Shown: positions 3,693-27,561 of the stretch, one piece after another
Position numbering within the stretch: the first letter of the stretch is position 1
Layout of the letters: each line of letters starts with the position of its first letter
NCBI GenBank assembly: GCA_017962085.1
Contig: JAGCWA010000015.1
Coordinates: 1-50,291 of the forward strand
Source: Paludibacteraceae bacterium
GTDB lineage: Bacteria > Bacteroidota > Bacteroidia > Bacteroidales > Paludibacteraceae
Direction: 5' to 3'
Length of the DNA stretch: 50,291 bases
The notes under the pieces: model-generated
Seen by the model: the letters and a program-made list of their open reading frames with translations, nothing else
Told to the model about the DNA's origin: nothing
Databases searched by the model: none
Position numbers and translations under genes: made by a program

Positions 3693-4939
3693 AAAAAATT
3701 ACAGTTATAGCAGATTTCGATTTCCTTGCTTCGCCACAGGAGATTGGAACGTTAGGCTACGAGCGTGTACGTGGCAAGGATCATTTTGTCTTTGAGTATT
3801 CGCATGAATGGCTGAAACAGCATGGTGGTATCTTGCTGAGTGGCGACCTGATGAATGTTCCTTCGTTGCAGCATCCTCGTGGCACGGATAGTGTGTTTGG
3901 TTTCGTCAAGGATTCTTTCCCCGACCGTTGGGGGCGTTTGTTGCTCGACCGCAGGGAGCGTCTGAAGGCGCAAGCTGAGGGAAGCCCCGTGCGAATGCTC
4001 ACCAACTACGACTATCTTACGGGAATTGAAGACTTCACCCGCATGGGCGGGATACGCTACAAAAGTGACGATTCCGAAGAATACATCAATGCGAGCACAA
4101 AGTATCTTGTTCCACCCATTGAGAGTCTTCGCACCCTATGCGATGCCTGTCACGAGATTGAGATGGCAGAAGAACGTAACGAGTTGCCAGAGCAACATTG
4201 GCTCGACCAGTTGATCGACCCAGGAACATCGCTTGGCGGTGCTCGCCCCAAAGCCAATGTCATAGATGCCGACGGCAAACTATATGTGGCAAAGTTTCCA
4301 TCAAAGAAGGACTTGGAGAACACTGAACTCATAGAGCACTTCTCACATCGGCTGGCAGCTAAGGCTGGTATCAACGTAGCCCAGACGCGCACCATCAAGA
4401 TTTCCAAAGACCGCAACATGTTGCTTTCCGAACGTTTTGATAGAAGCGCAGAAGGCAAGCGCATACATTTTGCTTCCGCCATGTCGTTGCTTGAGTTTGA
4501 CGATGGAGCTGGCAGCAGCACAGGAAACGGCTATCTTGATATCGTTGATTTCATCCTTCGTGGATGTACAGATGTACGGCAAAATCTCCGCGAACTCTAT
4601 CGCAGAGTGGCATTCAACATCATGTATGGTAACATCGATGACCACTTCCGTAATCATGGGTTCCTACTCACCCCGAAAGGTTGGACACTCTCTCCAGCAT
4701 ACGACATCAATCCAGGAATAAAGTCACATCAATGCTTGCTCATAGACCCATACACAGAAGAATCGGACATCAATGTTCTACTCTCCGCAAGCGAGAGCTA
4801 CATGCTTGAACGCCAAGAAGCATCAGAGATTATAGAAGAGGTTCGCTCAGCCATCAAAGACTGGCGCGAGACCGCTACAGGACTGCAAATACCTGCGAAG
4901 TTGTTAGAATCATACTCTATTCATTGGGATGAACTATAA
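3689..4939 (+). CDS. hipA: HipA-like serine/threonine kinase toxin
   Basis: The 416-residue protein has the HipA architecture: an N-terminal subdomain with a GxRYK-type stretch near residue 118, the Gly-rich P-loop-like segment GGARPKANV near 181, the catalytic loop NIDDHFRNHGF near 316 and the metal-binding SPAYDINP segment near 337. Family members phosphorylate translation factors such as glutamyl-tRNA synthetase and stop growth. The expected catalytic aspartates are present and the length is normal, so it appears intact. It is translationally coupled to the upstream HTH gene. The target cannot be read from sequence. Confidence 0.9.
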   Translation: MKKITVIADFDFLASPQEIGTLGYERVRGKDHFVFEYSHEWLKQHGGILLSGDLMNVPSLQHPRGTDSVFGFVKDSFPDRWGRLLLDRRERLKAQAEGSPVRMLTNYDYLTGIEDFTRMGGIRYKSDDSEEYINASTKYLVPPIESLRTLCDACHEIEMAEERNELPEQHWLDQLIDPGTSLGGARPKANVIDADGKLYVAKFPSKKDLENTELIEHFSHRLAAKAGINVAQTRTIKISKDRNMLLSERFDRSAEGKRIHFASAMSLLEFDDGAGSSTGNGYLDIVDFILRGCTDVRQNLRELYRRVAFNIMYGNIDDHFRNHGFLLTPKGWTLSPAYDINPGIKSHQCLLIDPYTEESDINVLLSASESYMLERQEASEIIEEVRSAIKDWRETATGLQIPAKLLESYSIHWDEL

Positions 4940-5211
4940 CAAAGAAGCACATTCCGCACGTTTTTCGTATAACAATGTGTAACGTTTGCAACGTAAATAG
5001 GACATGTAGTGAGCAAAGAGAAACTCGTTGATATTCAATGGAATAATACATTCAGACGAGAATTTCTCAAATCGATCAAAAAGGCATGGTACAAATAAAA
5101 TCATCATAGTACCTATTATCAAGCATTTGCACTTTAACTTACTTCCAAAAAACTTTCGGATTGCCGTTGGTGCGTAGGAAAGTAGATTAAATTTGTCATA
5201 AAAAAGGTCTG

Positions 5212-5712
5212 CTATATACACTTAATCCATAGCCCCATAAAACCGTATGGCACAATAAAGGATGCAAGAGCTAAAGCGACTGCAACAATTTTCATTGGCG
5301 TAGTTTGGGCTTTTTCTATAGTGTATGCACATAGGATATAAAATGCTGTGTTTACAATAAATAAAAGTAGAGCGTAGATGATGGAAGACTGTAACCTCGC
5401 CTCAAAACAAATAAAGCCGAACACAATAGCCATGATGATAGTAAACCCGCAACATAGCTCATAAAATGTGTTGGAATTCTTTGTGTTTATCATCATCAAC
5501 ATTATCAGCCAAGGAACGATAGCAAATATATATATAATTAAGAATATAAATCCATCGCCTGGACCATCGCCAGACTCTATTACAAAAGAACATGGAAAAA
5601 TTGAAAATAAAAACGATATAGCCAAAACCGTAAATGTCAGTTTCCGTTTGGAAAAATATTTGACAAAGAGAAAGACAATAATGGCGACTATTATGATTAT
5701 TATATATTTCAT
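5212..5712 (-). CDS. Hypothetical multi-pass membrane protein
   Basis: This 166-residue, very hydrophobic protein has about five predicted membrane segments, starting with an Ile/Val-rich helix at residues 2-17 and then KYFSKRK. I do not recognise a family. It is AT-rich, stands alone between hipA and an unrelated plus-strand gene, and has no visible partner. The ATG at 5712 begins directly with the hydrophobic helix, which supports that start. Confidence 0.6.
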   Translation of the reverse strand: MKYIIIIIVAIIVFLFVKYFSKRKLTFTVLAISFLFSIFPCSFVIESGDGPGDGFIFLIIYIFAIVPWLIMLMMINTKNSNTFYELCCGFTIIMAIVFGFICFEARLQSSIIYALLLFIVNTAFYILCAYTIEKAQTTPMKIVAVALALASFIVPYGFMGLWIKCI

Positions 5713-22240: not shown

Positions 22241-24508
22241 TCACACTGTCAGCAGTTTCGTCACCTCAGCCGGGTTGAGCGCCCACTCGTAGGTGTAGGC
22301 TTCATCGGCCTCGTCGGCACGTTCCACCCGTTCGAGGTGTTGCGCCTCCGCCTTGATGTCGAGGAGCTGGCCCACCGTGATTTTGTTCTCCAGCCTATGG
22401 AGCAACGCCTCGATGGAGGCACTGTCCGCTCCCCGCAACGTCTGCGCCGTGAAAGGCATCTCAAGCCAGATGATCTCACGCTTCGCCACATCCAGCACAC
22501 CGAAAACCAATCCCTTGGTGAGGTTCCCCTCGCTGATGCGCACCATGTGCTGCACGCACGACGGATCGTAAGCTACACCCGTCTTCTCCGATATTTTCAT
22601 CTCGTAGGCGGAATCCATCCAACCCACCATGAGGTTAGGCGAAAGCGTACCCGAGGAGTAGGCGTTGCATGTGAAGGTCACATACGTGGCGCCGGCAGCC
22701 TCCAACTCAGGGAGGGAGAGCTCGATATACTCGGCTGTACCCATCTCTCCTTTTGGCACCCAACGGATGTCGCCCGAGTGTTTTGCTCCCACGCAGGTCA
22801 GACTGTAGTAGGCGCACTCCGCGATTTGGTTATCTGGTAAAGCGACGCGGCAGCTCAAGTCCATGTCGATCGGACGGCAACCGAGACCTTTTCCCCAATG
22901 GAGGAAGAGTCGCACCGCATCGCCCGACACTGGGAAGCGCGTACCCATCAATGCGCAGGAGGTGTCCTGAATAGTGGAGGAACGGTCGCCCACGCTCACA
23001 GGGATATTATAGAGCGAAGGATCGATATAGATGCGCTTCGCCTCACACGGTTTTGCCGCGAATCGTTTAGTCATGGAACGTCGGTAGAGCGCTTTGATCG
23101 CCTCCATCATTCCTTGGAGGGTCTCCTCGTCGTAGAGTACCAGCAGTTTATTCGGTTCAATCGTTTTGACACCGCCTGTGATAGGACGAGCCAGACGTTC
23201 CGCCTTCGGGTCGAAGTAGGTCTCCGCCGCATTGCAGAGCGAGAGCAGCAAGCGGGCAGGCATACGATCCTCAACCTCCGAGAAGGCCGCCAGCGTCTTG
23301 TCTGTACCGAAGCGCAACATAGAAGCGAAGAGGCAACGGGCAAAGAGTCCCGGACGCTCCCTCAGCAGCGCCAGCGTGGCCTCCGCATCATCCGCGGAAC
23401 GAGCCTTGTCGACACGCCCCTGCCATGTGGAATAGTCTTGCTTGTAGAAGACATCGAGAATCTCCGCCAAGCGGTCGAAGCCCTTCTTGCGGGAGTATTC
23501 GCCCAAACGGAGCGCACGGATCATGCGTACCCACATGCCACGCTTCGGGTTCATGTTCTCGGCCGACTGGGCAGCCGTCATCGGGATATCGTTCAGCCAC
23601 TTCGCCACACGCAGGCAAGCCTTGCGATCGTACTTCAGCATCAGCTTACGCTTCATGTCAATAGCCGCGTCCTGGCTTCTGTCGAGCGGTCCCCACATGT
23701 GGAAGTACAACTTGCTGGCGTGGGCCACAAGCGTCTTCGGCTCGATGATCTGCGCGAAGCCCGTCTTCTCGAACCAGAGGTAGCGGAGGATGTCGGTCGG
23801 AGTCTTCAGGAAGCGCATCGCCTCGTCAGCCCCACCCTGCTCCACCAGCATCCTGATGACGAGCATGGCGGTCTCCTTCATCGTGACCTCGACATCGTCA
23901 GGCAGCGGGAAGAGCCTCAACAACTGGCTCAACGAATCCTGCTGCGTACCATCCAGCGGTGTGGCGGACGTCAGGAGCGAGCGGAACACATACACCATAT
24001 CCTCCATCGTGAAGAGGCGCAGTTCCTTCAGTTTGCTACCCTGCCCCTTGTAGACAAAGTCGGACGTTTCGAAAGGCTTGCCGCAGAAAGGACATCCGTT
24101 ATAGCGTTCCAGGGGGAAAGTACCCTCCGGGATCAGGTGACCGCAAGGCAATGTAGTGCCTTTGAAACCAGCCTTCTTGCCAAAGATATTAGCGACCCAC
24201 GTGATGAGATGATCGGCCAAGGATTCACCCGTAGGCACATCCCAGCCCTTGACGAGCGGTGTCCAGTTGAGGTCCACACCCATCACTTCATTGACGCACG
24301 AAGTAATCTCCGCCAGACGATCCACAGGGACATTGTTCAACGCATGGAGCAACTCCTCGCTGACGCAGTAACCATTCTCCTGCAAGCGGCGGACGAGCGC
24401 CAAGACAGGAGCGGTCGTCTCCGACTGCAGATTGATATCCGCACGGTTCACATCCAGGAACACCGCCTTGTAGCGCAAGGCCACTTTTGTTAAAACATTG
24501 TTATCCAT
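22241..24508 (-). CDS. MXAN_6230/SCO0854-type protein: RING-like, alpha-solenoid, TerD-like
   Basis: This 755-residue protein has an N-terminal helical part, a zinc module at about residues 119-145 (LPCGHLIPEG ... GCPFCGKPF, a treble-clef/RING-like Cys-His pattern), a long alpha-helical middle (about 160-480) with HEAT-like pairs such as RPGLFARCLFASMLRFG, and a beta-rich C-terminal domain (about 520-720) with LFLHWGKGLGCRPIDMDLSC resembling TerD. The order matches the family NCBI names MXAN_6230/SCO0854. It lies directly downstream of four structured RNAs and next to rtcB and rlaP. By analogy with Ro60/TROVE proteins that hold Y RNAs in RtcB operons, it may be the RNA-binding scaffold; that is inference. 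A stem-loop (24532-24575) sits in its leader and a terminator follows it. Confidence 0.78.
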   Translation of the reverse strand: MDNNVLTKVALRYKAVFLDVNRADINLQSETTAPVLALVRRLQENGYCVSEELLHALNNVPVDRLAEITSCVNEVMGVDLNWTPLVKGWDVPTGESLADHLITWVANIFGKKAGFKGTTLPCGHLIPEGTFPLERYNGCPFCGKPFETSDFVYKGQGSKLKELRLFTMEDMVYVFRSLLTSATPLDGTQQDSLSQLLRLFPLPDDVEVTMKETAMLVIRMLVEQGGADEAMRFLKTPTDILRYLWFEKTGFAQIIEPKTLVAHASKLYFHMWGPLDRSQDAAIDMKRKLMLKYDRKACLRVAKWLNDIPMTAAQSAENMNPKRGMWVRMIRALRLGEYSRKKGFDRLAEILDVFYKQDYSTWQGRVDKARSADDAEATLALLRERPGLFARCLFASMLRFGTDKTLAAFSEVEDRMPARLLLSLCNAAETYFDPKAERLARPITGGVKTIEPNKLLVLYDEETLQGMMEAIKALYRRSMTKRFAAKPCEAKRIYIDPSLYNIPVSVGDRSSTIQDTSCALMGTRFPVSGDAVRLFLHWGKGLGCRPIDMDLSCRVALPDNQIAECAYYSLTCVGAKHSGDIRWVPKGEMGTAEYIELSLPELEAAGATYVTFTCNAYSSGTLSPNLMVGWMDSAYEMKISEKTGVAYDPSCVQHMVRISEGNLTKGLVFGVLDVAKREIIWLEMPFTAQTLRGADSASIEALLHRLENKITVGQLLDIKAEAQHLERVERADEADEAYTYEWALNPAEVTKLLTV

Positions 24509-24531
24509 AACATTAAAATTTTAAAAGGTAA

Positions 24532-24575
24532 TGGGTCAGCAGAGAAACTACAATTCTGATTTGAAGTATGCTGAC
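24532..24575 (-). promoter_or_regulatory. Leader stem-loop before the RING/TerD-like gene
   Basis: On the minus strand GGTCAGCA pairs with TGCTGACC (8 bp), enclosing a second pairing ACTTCAA/TTGTAGT with one mismatch. It ends about 24 bases before the start codon at 24508, so it would lie in the 5' leader of the mRNA, downstream of the last tRNA-like RNA. A regulatory or RNA-processing role is possible. Confidence 0.5.
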
Positions 24576-24598
24576 CTTGACCTTGTTATAAAAAGCGC

Positions 24599-24785
24599 AC
24601 CGCGAGCAGGAATCGAACCTGCGACACATAGTAGGAACAGAAGTATATGATGATTGATCCTTTGGAAGGGAATGACATCACGGGGTGAAGAAGGGCTTCA
24701 CACAACCGTTATACGATGATTGATCCTTCGGGAGGAAATGACATCACAAATAAAACTATTGCTCTACCAACTGAGCTATCGCGGT
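24599..24785 (-). ncRNA. tRNA-like RNA 1 with a 122-nt structured anticodon loop
   Basis: A full cloverleaf is visible: 7-bp acceptor ACCGCGA/TCGCGGT, 4-bp D-stem GCTC/GAGC with loop AGTTGGTA, 5-bp anticodon stem ATAGT/ACTAT, 5-nt variable loop, and 5-bp T-stem GCAGG/CCTGC with loop TTCGATT. Instead of 7 nt the anticodon loop spans 24754-24633. It folds into three hairpins: two copies of GATG-TCATT-stem-TCAAT-CATC (about 24744-24716 and 24677-24649) with the same 5x5 internal loop, flanking a GTGAAG/CTTCAC hairpin. It encodes no CCA and no anticodon can be assigned, so it cannot be an ordinary tRNA. It lies between other structured RNAs and the RING/TerD-like gene, in an RtcB locus. Confidence 0.82.
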
Positions 24786-24868
24786 ATAAAGGAGAGGTAA
24801 TCGAACAACTGATGGAGCCTCTTTAGCAAAATGTTACAGAAGCAAGTTGCTCTTGACCTTTTCCTTAT
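24786..24868 (-). ncRNA. tRNA-like RNA 3 (degenerate)
   Basis: The 12-nt ends ATAAGGAAAAGG (24868-24857) and CCTCTCCTTTAT (24797-24786) pair at 10 of 12 positions, counting one G-U. Inside are the short hairpin AGCA-ACT-TGCT and a T-loop-like TTCGATT (24805-24799) that lacks a convincing T-stem. It fills exactly the space between tRNA-like RNAs 2 and 1, which supports a separate RNA unit, but the fold is less certain than for its neighbours. Confidence 0.4.
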
Positions 24869-24871
24869 CGA

Positions 24872-24960
24872 GCGGCGGGTTGGATTCGAACCAACAGTAA
24901 CCATTAGGAGTAAGCATACGTTTAGGCCTTGAAAGAGGCAATTACAAAGCTTACCGCCGC
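24872..24960 (-). ncRNA. tRNA-like RNA 2 (acceptor and T arm, altered middle)
   Basis: It has a perfect 7-bp acceptor GCGGCGG/CCGCCGC and a perfect T arm GTTGG-TTCGAAT-CCAAC. The 58-nt middle cannot form normal D and anticodon arms. Instead TAAGC (24953-24949) pairs with GCTTA (24915-24911) around a small GCCT/AGGC hairpin. The RNA starts directly after the T-run of the upstream structured RNA. It would be seen by T-arm and acceptor-binding enzymes such as RNase P or RtcB-pathway proteins, but not decoded. Confidence 0.75.
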
Positions 24961-24961
24961 A

Positions 24962-25048
24962 TAAAAAAAGACGGAAATCACGGTTCTGCCCTGTTTGAGT
25001 CCCGAAGGTCTCATACTAATAGAAGTAAGAACCATTTAGTCCGTCTTA
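24962..25048 (-). ncRNA. Structured RNA with closed ends, UUCG hairpin and U-tail
   Basis: On the minus strand the ends AAGACGGA/TCCGTCTT form 8 bp, then a symmetric 6x6 internal loop, then GGTTCT/AGAACC (6 bp). The head branches into TACT-N6-AGTA and GAGACC-UUCG-GGACUC, the latter with the extra-stable UUCG tetraloop. A run of seven T follows the last stem, so it could end by intrinsic termination. Paired ends, an internal loop and a U-tail are reminiscent of Y RNAs, but I see no sequence identity that would prove this. A possible -7 box TATTTTTA lies just upstream (25055-25062). Confidence 0.7.
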
Positions 25049-25141
25049 TGAACGTAAAAATACATACATTTTGTTTAATCACGAAAAATAAGACGAAAAA
25101 ATCGCAAATGTGTTTCCAAATATCAATCGGGTATCGGGGGC

Positions 25142-25403
25142 GTAGAGACGCAAAATATTGCGTCTATACAATCGACATCGTGATGCCGAGGCGGGGGGAC
25201 GTAGAGACGCAAAATATTGCGTCTGTACAATCGACACCGTGATGCCGGGGCGGGGTACGTAGAGACGCAAAATATTGCGTCTGTACAATCGACATCGTGA
25301 TGCCGGGGCGGGGGGACGTAGAGACGCAAAATATTGCGTCTGTACAATCGACACCGTGGTGCCGGGGCGGGGTACGTAGAGACGCAAAATATTGCGTCTG
25401 TAC
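25142..25403. repeat. Array of five palindromic REP-like units
   Basis: Five copies of a 28-bp palindrome (GTAGAGACGCAA, core, then TTGCGTCTGTAC) start at 25142, 25201, 25259, 25318 and 25376. Spacing alternates 59, 58, 59, 58, because the linkers alternate between a CATCG...GGGGGGAC and a CACCG...GGGGTAC version, so the array grew as about 117-bp dimers. It separates rtcB from the RNA cluster; the last unit almost reaches the rtcB stop codon. Long open frames across it are artefacts of the repeat. Confidence 0.93.
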
Positions 25404-25405
25404 AA

Positions 25406-26578
25406 TCACCCCTTGATCACCGCCACCGGCAACAATTTCGTCTTCACCCTGACCAGATCCGCCTCGTTGGCGATGACCGTATCAATGTCCTTGTAGGCAC
25501 CCGATGCCTCCTGCATATCATCTTGGGAGCGGATGGCGTGGACGATACCCTTCGCCTCCAGCATCTCCACCTCCTGACGAATATCCAGCGTGTCAATGGC
25601 CATCTTGCGCGACATGACGCGACCCGCACCGTGCGAGCAGGAGCAGAACGAGTCTGGGTTGCCAAGGCCTTCGACGATATACGAAGCCGTACCCTGCGAG
25701 CCTGGGATGATACCAACGACACCCTCTCGGGCAAGCGTGGCGCCCTTGCGGTGCACGATGACGTCCGACCCGAAGTGGTTCTCGACAGCGGCGTAGTTGT
25801 GGGCGATGTTGATCATCGGTTCGAACTCGATACCCTTGAGCGCATCCGCAAGGATCTCCTCAATGCGCTCCATCATCAGTCTACGGTTGCACAAAGCGAA
25901 ATCGATGCAATACTTCATCTCCTCCCAGTACATACCGAACTCCTTGCATCCACGGGCCAGGAAAGGCAGACGCAGCTCAGGGGCGACGCTGGAGTACCAA
26001 CGTTCGTTCAGGGAAGCCGCCAGCTTGTTGTAGAAATCGCCCACCTGCTTTCCCAGGTTACGCGAACCCGAGTGGATCATGATCCAAAGCGTATCCTCCT
26101 CATCCTTCTGCAGTTCGATGAAGTGGTTACCACCTCCCAACGTACCCACCTCGTGCCGGATGGAGTGCTGGCGACGGTTCACCACCTCCAGCTTATCTAT
26201 GTCATAACCTTGAGGCAAGTATTGCTCGTCCTGAGGCTCCTTGTGGTGGTCCATACCCAAAGGAATACGTTTGCGGATTCCCCTCATGATCTCCTTACGG
26301 AGCACATCCATAGGGATGTCGCCCACCTTCCAATTGGTCTTCACGGCGCACATTCCGCAGCCGATATCAACGCCCACCGCATTAGGGATGACAACATCCT
26401 TGCAGGCGAGCACGCCACCGATCGGCATACCCATACCAGCGTGCACGTCAGGCATGATGGCCAGGTGGTGGAAGAGGAACGGAAGGGTGGTCAGGTTCTC
26501 AATCTGACGCATGGCCGACTCCTCCACATCGTCGGTCCAAATCTTAACCAAACGGTTATTAATCGTTTTTATAATCAT
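25406..26578 (-). CDS. rtcB: RNA-splicing/repair ligase RtcB
   Basis: RtcB joins 2',3'-cyclic-phosphate or 3'-phosphate RNA ends to 5'-OH ends using GTP and Mn2+. The 390-residue protein from the ATG at 26578 (MIIKTINNRLVKIW) has the family motifs in order: DVHAGMGMPIGGV, GVDIGCGMCAV (metal Cys), GGGNHFIE, HSGSRNLG, NIAHNYAAVENHFG, and SHGAGR near residue 311 with the His that becomes guanylylated. An upstream extension of the frame runs into the promoter and was discarded. The promoter/operator is nearly identical to that of rlaP. The 3' neighbour is a repeat array and then structured RNAs. All active-site residues I can check are present. Confidence 0.95.
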   Translation of the reverse strand: MIIKTINNRLVKIWTDDVEESAMRQIENLTTLPFLFHHLAIMPDVHAGMGMPIGGVLACKDVVIPNAVGVDIGCGMCAVKTNWKVGDIPMDVLRKEIMRGIRKRIPLGMDHHKEPQDEQYLPQGYDIDKLEVVNRRQHSIRHEVGTLGGGNHFIELQKDEEDTLWIMIHSGSRNLGKQVGDFYNKLAASLNERWYSSVAPELRLPFLARGCKEFGMYWEEMKYCIDFALCNRRLMMERIEEILADALKGIEFEPMINIAHNYAAVENHFGSDVIVHRKGATLAREGVVGIIPGSQGTASYIVEGLGNPDSFCSCSHGAGRVMSRKMAIDTLDIRQEVEMLEAKGIVHAIRSQDDMQEASGAYKDIDTVIANEADLVRVKTKLLPVAVIKG

Positions 26579-26640
26579 CGTTATCAATCTTTTAAATTTC
26601 ACTTTCTTCTTGTGGCACCCCACCCGACAACCCGAATGGA

Positions 26641-26697
26641 AGATTCACGATGCAAAGTAAGAATGCCACTACGCAATCTTTCTGCGTACCTGAAAAA
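26641..26697 (-). promoter_or_regulatory. rtcB promoter/operator (shared element, copy 1)
   Basis: The minus strand carries TACGCA-N7-TGCGTA (26688-26670, centre 26679) and TTTG of a TTACTTTG -7 box at 26656-26653, 23 bases from the centre. About 55 bases around these are almost identical to the region upstream of rlaP (27611-27667). The repeat includes the sequence GTGGCATTC between operator and -7 box. Confidence 0.75.
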
Positions 26698-26730: not shown

Positions 26731-27561
26731 CTATTGGAGCAGAACCATATCATACAATATCGCGTCCAGCTTTTCGTGCGACACCCTTTGCAGTTCCGGG
26801 CGGAATGAACCGATGCGAGCGTCGTAATAATCCGCCAAGCGATGCGTGAAGCTTTGCAACTCGGCATCGACCAATTGCAGGTCACATTCGTTCCCGCTCT
26901 TTTTCAGTTGCAGCAATCGGTCGATTTGAACCTTTATTCGCTCATCGTCCACAACGGCCTCCACAAGCTCCCTGAACGCCACAGGAGGCATTGTCAGGTT
27001 CTTTTCGATCCACTTGCATGCCAGCACACCCCGAAGGTAGTAGAGGAAACGTTTGGCGGAACAACCCTCCTTCTGCAGGTACCGTTCGTTGTGCTTGTTG
27101 TACATCCTATTGTAGTGGTACATGCCTCTGACAGGGTTGAAGCAGAGCGATTCCACCTCCAGAACCCGTCGGATGAACTCCTCGTTTCTATAATAGACCT
27201 TAGGCGAATTGAACCATTCGAGCAAGGATGGATTACCACGGCTGAACATCACGAGCGCTTTCCGCAGTTCCCACCCGGACAAGTCCACATCGTCCTCGTA
27301 CATGCGCTCAATCACATCACGTTGCTCTTTGATCATAAAGTACCATTCGGGCTTGTGCACGTAGATGAAACGCACATCCCAATCGCTGTTCTTTGACTCG
27401 AAGCCCCATGCGCGGCTACCCGACTCGACGGCCAGCAGAATCTTCACACCAAACTCTTCCTCCACCTCCCTGAGATGCGTAGGTATGGCAACCTTCTCCA
27501 TGTAATCCGGACTGAAGTTCGTCATTTCAAGACATTTGCCCAAATTTCCAGTTTCCATCAT
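26731..27561 (-). CDS. rlaP: RlaP-type polymerase-beta-fold nucleotidyltransferase
   Basis: The 276-residue protein has the minimal NTase signature: GSRAWGF at residues 48-54 and the metal-binding Asp pair in SDWDVRF (Asp60, Asp62), followed by a helical C-terminal part with YHYNRMYNKHNERYL. This is the RlaP family (RNA ligase-associated pol beta), described as adding or editing nucleotides on damaged RNA ends in systems built around RtcB or other RNA ligases. Its own promoter copies that of rtcB, the gene just downstream, which argues for coordinated induction. The first two codons are both ATG, so the start could be 27561 or 27558. Confidence 0.88.
   Translation of the reverse strand: MMETGNLGKCLEMTNFSPDYMEKVAIPTHLREVEEEFGVKILLAVESGSRAWGFESKNSDWDVRFIYVHKPEWYFMIKEQRDVIERMYEDDVDLSGWELRKALVMFSRGNPSLLEWFNSPKVYYRNEEFIRRVLEVESLCFNPVRGMYHYNRMYNKHNERYLQKEGCSAKRFLYYLRGVLACKWIEKNLTMPPVAFRELVEAVVDDERIKVQIDRLLQLKKSGNECDLQLVDAELQSFTHRLADYYDARIGSFRPELQRVSHEKLDAILYDMVLLQ

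Follow-up and report, generated by a model that had tools for sequence, protein, structure and literature searches.

We analysed a 50,291-nt stretch of DNA from a Paludibacteraceae bacterium (GCA_017962085.1, contig JAGCWA010000015.1; this whole stretch is called the window below). On its minus strand we observed five structured RNAs of 64–188 nt, placed ahead of a gene for a 755-aa protein with RING-like, alpha-solenoid and TerD-like parts (the RING-solenoid-TerD gene). All five RNAs share one motif, which is circularly permuted in the tRNA-like RNAs compared to the plain hairpins. They form a new RNA class that is linked to the RING-solenoid-TerD gene, a conclusion about which we have hardly any doubt. 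The RNAs of the window and the motif copies inside RNA C are as follows.

24963–25045, minus strand: A, a closed-end variant of the plain hairpin with a U-tail (−27.7 kcal/mol, z −4.1)
24871–24960, minus strand: B, a tRNA-like RNA in which acceptor and T-arm are the only tRNA parts (fold z −3.7)
24792–24862, minus strand: S1, a UGCUUC variant of the plain hairpin, lying between B and C (fold z −2.2)
24598–24785, minus strand: C, a full tRNA cloverleaf with an insert replacing the anticodon loop (Rfam tRNA, 51.8 bits; z −4.9)
24715–24747, minus strand: first permuted-element copy in C, without UACUUC behind it (read from the sequence)
24640–24681, minus strand: second permuted-element copy in C, followed by UACUUC at 24640–24645 (read from the sequence)
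24523–24586, minus strand: S2, the leader hairpin, plain topology (fold z −3.4; 14 bases before the ATG)

An earlier note on this DNA had described a closed-end RNA with a U-tail and a leader hairpin ahead of the gene, and both are present (A and S2). It had also counted two or three tRNA-like RNAs. Two of these stand, B and C, and the supposed third is the plain hairpin S1.

One motif in two topologies

In the plain topology the motif reads GGU-CAA-[8 bp]-UACUUC-loop-[8 bp]-NAUU-ACC. In the permuted topology it reads [8 bp]-NAUU-(U/A)CC-loop-GG-(U/A)CAA-[8 bp]-UACUUC and occupies the place of the anticodon loop in a tRNA cloverleaf. RNA A has the outer helix GACGGA/UCCGUC, the loop CUAA/GAUU and an 8-bp inner helix (AUGGUUCU/AGAACCGU), with UACUUC and then seven U. 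The motif is weakest in B, which encloses a permuted copy with UACUCC that is partly paired in the minimum-energy fold; 13 B-like RNAs, having acceptor and T-arm only, were listed from other loci. In the minimum-energy fold of C, the outer halves of its two copies (5′ from the first, 3′ from the second) combine into one motif. Instead of the seven-base anticodon loop of a functional tRNA, both C and 26 C-type relatives carry the motif insert, and ARAGORN called no tRNA at C. A 30-base stretch lying between the two copies in C (24680–24709) has a 97% match at another place in the genome (C52:2616–2645; L002 1501–1530). This second occurrence is part of GACGACGGTTGCGTGAAGCCCTTCTTCACCCCGTCG, behind which comes a run of T, and resembles a small RNA or a terminator.

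The motif is supported by covariation in three sets of RNAs. Among 36 plain hairpins from five genera and two families, the 12 pairs of the motif were paired in 90.5% of cases, with changes on both sides in 11 of the 12. Double-change cells numbered 97, compared to 29.4 in shuffles, and sliding the 3′ side by 1–3 columns lowered the pairing to 34–51%. We also scored 80 loci, the best 80 of 331 relatives found, with a model (R1) trained on 36 hairpins. It gave 114 matches, of which 110 could be parsed (UACUUC in 84 and UACUCC in 25). The 109 distinct hairpins covary, 96.9% of their cells being paired in an alignment that was fitted to the model. In the 26 C-type RNAs, which were chosen for having a cloverleaf and the motif, pairing was 100% in the acceptor and T-stem, 90% in the permuted 8-bp helix and 66% in the outer helix, the last value being low because the register differs between two groups. 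Double changes were found in 26 of 32 pairs. Each of these RNAs has a single-copy insert; the alignment left out the RNA of locus L159 and, from the window's genus, the long copies with a doubled insert, C of the window included.

Both plain hairpins of the window belong to the training set of R1. S2 scored 62.9 bits (E 5e-10 over the complete genome) and S1 52 bits (E 1.3e-7); 6 of 200 shuffles folded as well as S1.

In the stretches scanned, tRNA is the only Rfam family that covers the class at cut-off: it alone did so in the window, and in three phage loci no family did. The Y RNA and YrlA families stayed below theirs; in the locus L157 part of YrlA matched with 26.7 bits, where the cut-off is 69. 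We saw no report of this RNA among the top-ranked results of the open-access literature searched, a scope outside which most subscription papers lie.

Co-occurrence of the RNA and the RING-solenoid-TerD gene

We recorded the protein and the RNA in two draws of genomes. In the family draw the protein was found in 15 of 150 genomes and the RNA in 14, all of them protein carriers; in the fifteenth the gene match begins at base 4 of its contig and is thus cut off. In the phylum draw 11 of 395 genomes had the protein, and exactly these 11 had the RNA. Pooled, with the window's genome counted once, the RNA was present in 24 of the 25 genomes with the gene and in none of the 519 without it (135 + 384 from the two draws; about one genome may be in both). 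Genomes that supplied the training hairpins match R1 by construction, while the 0/519 result and five further carriers described below are independent of the training. Model searches over 40 genomes use stricter filters, and weak matches are lost in them.

The 80 loci gave a consistent picture. The 114 matches lay in 70 loci, all on the strand of the gene and 113 of them within 1 kb upstream; in 56 of these loci the nearest match ended 7–22 bases ahead of the gene match. The remaining match precedes a second gene copy in L122. There, from position 1907, the start of the RING-solenoid-TerD gene occurs in an apparently frame-broken form with a leader hairpin of its own; the other copy lies 6 kb downstream. 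Eleven of the 80 loci appear to repeat genomes already in the draws, and the others therefore had a match in 59 of 69.

Upstream sequences of the ten loci lacking a model match were read by eye. Five have a variant: the A-type in L096, L116, L147 and L148 (L116 also has a decayed S2), and a hairpin with UACGCC in L133. In L106 only 212 bases are available, and no RNA was visible in L112, L121, L127 and L158, whose upstream sequences are complete. Three of the last four (L112, L121 and L158) share another short leader that contains CCATGAAA...GATGGTT or a close variant of it and may be a substitute element. The earlier note had named absence of the RNAs from homologous loci as a result that would speak against it; they were found in 24 of 25 genomes, and among the 80 loci the model detected them in 70, with five more recognised by eye.

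A scan of 393 genomes of the order with R1, blind to the gene, returned the window's own genome and the five further carriers. The gene adjoins the RNA in all five (protein identity 44–75%). One of them, G752, is the locus L117 by position and score, and four of the five are therefore new.

The RNA arrays occur in gut and rumen bacteria. Arrays of seven units were seen in Prevotella ruminicola KHT3 (L157) and in a second genus, probably Flavobacterium. In L046 (G128), a second tRNA-like RNA, a leader-type hairpin and an inserted coding stretch lie between the array and the gene, a layout that looks as if the cassette had duplicated around a cargo.

The protein, its neighbours and copies of the RNA in phages

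The minus-strand order in the window is rlaP (27561–26731), rtcB (26623–25406), 59-bp tandem repeats, the five RNAs (25045–24523) and the RING-solenoid-TerD gene (24508–22241). Genes and palindromic sites are listed below.

22241–24508, minus strand: RING-solenoid-TerD gene, 755 aa, MXAN_6230/SCO0854-type
25406–26623, minus strand: rtcB, RNA ligase (Pfam RtcB, E 2e-107)
26731–27561, minus strand: rlaP, polymerase-beta-type RNA repair nucleotidyltransferase (Pfam RlaP, E 1.7e-74)
26670–26688, no strand: TACGCA-N7-TGCGTA ahead of rtcB, an inverted repeat and putative operator, one of only two perfect sites in the genome
27639–27657, no strand: second perfect TACGCA-N7-TGCGTA repeat, ahead of rlaP (genome-wide pattern scan)

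The protein has a RING-like zinc segment (residues ∼118–145), an alpha-solenoid (∼161–500) and a TerD-like beta domain (∼525–700). It had been assigned to the MXAN_6230 type. The relationship holds over residues 12–689 (NCBIfam NF041916, MXAN_6230/SCO0854; E 4e-45), and the score of 154.3 bits is far below the cut-off of 600; the protein is therefore a divergent branch of this family of RING proteins. Its closest named relatives are from Paludibacteraceae of ruminant stomachs (protein identity up to 98%). Among 40 relatives, Prok-RING_4 was found in 39 and was the only Pfam match common to most, the remainder being weak; none of the 15 Pfam families listed for them is a ToxN-like or other nuclease domain. 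A PDB sequence search with the protein profile gave five weak matches (E 0.018–0.44) to unrelated enzymes and ribosomal proteins, and PADLOC matched neither this protein nor RtcB or RlaP to a known defence family. Neither MXAN_6230 nor SCO0854 is named in any paper of the open-access literature searched.

When the solenoid was modelled alone, Ro60 was the best match among all chains compared. The earlier note had put the solenoid in the scaffold position of Ro60, a placing with which the model agrees as far as a moderate Z score allows. The TerD-like domain stands where Ro60 has its C-terminal vWA domain, and no vWA domain is present. Pfam TROVE (PF05731) had no match in the window protein or in 39 relatives, and none in the window's genome. 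A comparison by hhalign with an alignment of 10 TROVE proteins showed no homology at the sequence level (0.3%).

Pairing with RtcB and RlaP, as the earlier note proposed, is seen in the window but is not general. A close RtcB (80% or more) was found upstream in about 17 of the 80 loci (one of them, L087, read from its contig) and in none of ten upstream stretches of the second genus; RlaP was rarer. Many of the loci end early at contig ends. A WYL/WCX regulator (Pfam) with at least 66% identity was near 21 of the 80 loci, and a WYL relative at 45–55% was found in 7 of 10 second-genus loci. The constant pair is the RNA and the RING-solenoid-TerD protein, often with a WYL regulator; RtcB and RlaP are not constant.

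The 3.37-Mb genome has exactly two perfect TACGCA-N7-TGCGTA sites, those ahead of rtcB and rlaP, and four further palindromes with one mismatch; a reversed control pattern gave two sites per strand. A looser form of the palindrome occurred upstream in 36 of 103 regions, a set that holds some loci twice, including all ten of the second genus, and was mostly followed by a TTTG promoter-like box. The named loci contained 56 such sites in 1.10 Mb, compared to 2 in one shuffle. The tandem repeats between rtcB and the RNAs (25136–25407, 59 bp, 4.7 copies) vary in copy number among close relatives.

Copies of the hairpin were also found in phages. Pattern scans of IMG/VR gave mostly chance matches, and four contigs scored as true members with 48–55 bits (3 of 43 scored from one scan, and 1 of 100 loci, a subset, scored from two others). 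Other viral contigs picked by pattern scored 17–28 bits and were treated as chance. One of the four is the crAss-like phage cr60_1 (NC_055891, Buchavirus), in which the hairpin lies ahead of a sigma-factor gene. We searched 11 whole phage records and obtained a match with E below 1e-6 in five. cr52_1 has the hairpin at the same place as cr60_1, with compensated stem changes (44 bits), and a diverged copy with an insert was seen by eye in cr113_1 and cr109_1 (17.5 bits, E 0.18). cr56_1 has no hairpin at that place, and three other related records gave no convincing match. In L206, part of a 92.7-kb phage contig, the hairpin lies in a long frame-poor stretch (4660–5470), where other structured RNAs may also be present.

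Nine stretches of viral contigs matched a peptide pattern for the RING-solenoid-TerD protein, and no relative was among them. Among the matches listed for the permuted motif in viral loci (84), two near-identical ones had 7 of 8 pairs, none had 8 of 8 and none was judged real. A GGTCTAA-containing pattern matched viral contigs three times, with 1–4 of 8 pairs.

A proposed Ro60-like particle and alternative explanations

The RING-solenoid-TerD protein probably binds the motif. As the same motif occurs in two circular permutations, on hairpin and on tRNA scaffolds, the protein may read a three-dimensional shape, with contacts to the 8-bp helix, the CAA/NAUU loop and UACUUC. At somewhat better than an even chance, we propose that the locus encodes a ribonucleoprotein (RNP) working like Ro60 with its Y RNAs, with a role in phage conflict. 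Damage would switch the array on through a WYL-type regulator acting at TACGCA-N7-TGCGTA, in the window together with RlaP and RtcB. The tRNA-like bodies could serve as bait, handle or imitation for partners of tRNA processing or repair, and the assembly would sense, handle or dispose of RNA damaged in phage attack. The leader hairpin could additionally feed back on the protein's own mRNA. Two observations weigh against this proposal: a close WYL regulator was not found in the window's genome, and the match of the modelled solenoid to Ro60 is only moderate in Z.

Ro60 and Y RNA systems, including bacterial Rsr and YrlA beside rtcBA, likewise have small structured RNAs, some of them tRNA-like, next to a solenoid protein, with RtcB in some genomes; the solenoid predicted here is closest to Ro60 among the chains compared. 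Unlike Ro60, the protein has no TROVE sequence signature, has TerD for vWA and has a RING-like N-terminal part. Unlike Rsr/YrlA loci, the neighbour is WYL and not RtcR, and the RNAs fall below the Rfam cut-offs for Y RNA. Vault RNA is another small RNA with tRNA-gene-like boxes, and its partner TEP1 is a TROVE protein. TEP1 is also named as TROVE1 (PMC11277228). A possible sequence likeness to vault RNA itself was not confirmed; a search of the text of one vault RNA review (PMC11012908) did not turn up the stretch.

The locus also resembles type III (ToxIN-like) systems, in which the RNAs would restrain a toxic protein and the phage copies mimic the antidote. RNA units stand directly upstream of one protein gene (70 of 80 loci), and phages have a lone copy with no protein found, as phage PhiTE has pseudo-ToxI (PMC3475682). 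Unlike in ToxIN, we found no ToxN-like or other nuclease domain, the predicted folds being a Ro60-like solenoid and TerD. Moreover, the RNAs of the window are long, with two topologies, and not uniform short repeats. We consider such an antitoxin function unlikely. About equally improbable is that the hairpins are cis-acting control elements of mRNA, with the protein or another factor binding its own leader. In 56 of 70 loci the nearest hairpin is only a short way from the gene match, and the cr60_1 copy lies in the leader of a sigma-factor gene; both are in accord with it. The tRNA-like members, the U-tailed RNA A and the presence of as many as seven units, of both topologies, in one locus argue against it. 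As feedback on free protein is possible, a leader role of the last hairpin is compatible with the RNP proposal.

Two further explanations start from tRNA. RNA C could be a pre-tRNA with an intron, rejoined by RtcB after excision, as its cloverleaf is complete, its anticodon arm holds an insert, and RtcB is encoded next door. We reject it as very improbable: what the relatives conserve is the insert and not an anticodon, and no RtcB was found near many loci (for example, among C-type loci, in L137, L152 and L153 and in the second genus). The plain hairpins, in addition, carry the motif without any tRNA. Fragments of tRNAs do occur beside integration sites, and the RNAs could have arisen by chance or be remnants of decayed tRNAs in an AT-rich stretch between genes; covariation in three sets and the strict strand, position and co-occurrence contradict this, leaving it a negligible probability.

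Returning to the Ro60-like RNP, the presence in phages of the RNA without its protein suggests a decoy that would occupy the protein, by analogy with pseudo-ToxI for ToxIN, and these copies speak more for conflict than for housekeeping repair. A more specific form of the proposal is plausible to us at somewhat less than even chance. The locus would encode a second Ro/Y-like immunity particle, in which a Ro60-like ring is armed by multi-copy RNAs of two topologies, some of them embedded in tRNA mimics without an anticodon loop. It would sense anticodon-type damage in phage attack, and crAss-like and other phages would carry the decoy.

The phage copies hint at an RNA-based defence, and through them a role in defence can be tested directly. 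The tie between this RNA and a protein whose modelled solenoid is nearest to Ro60 bears on the origin and the bacterial role of Ro/Y and vault-type particles.
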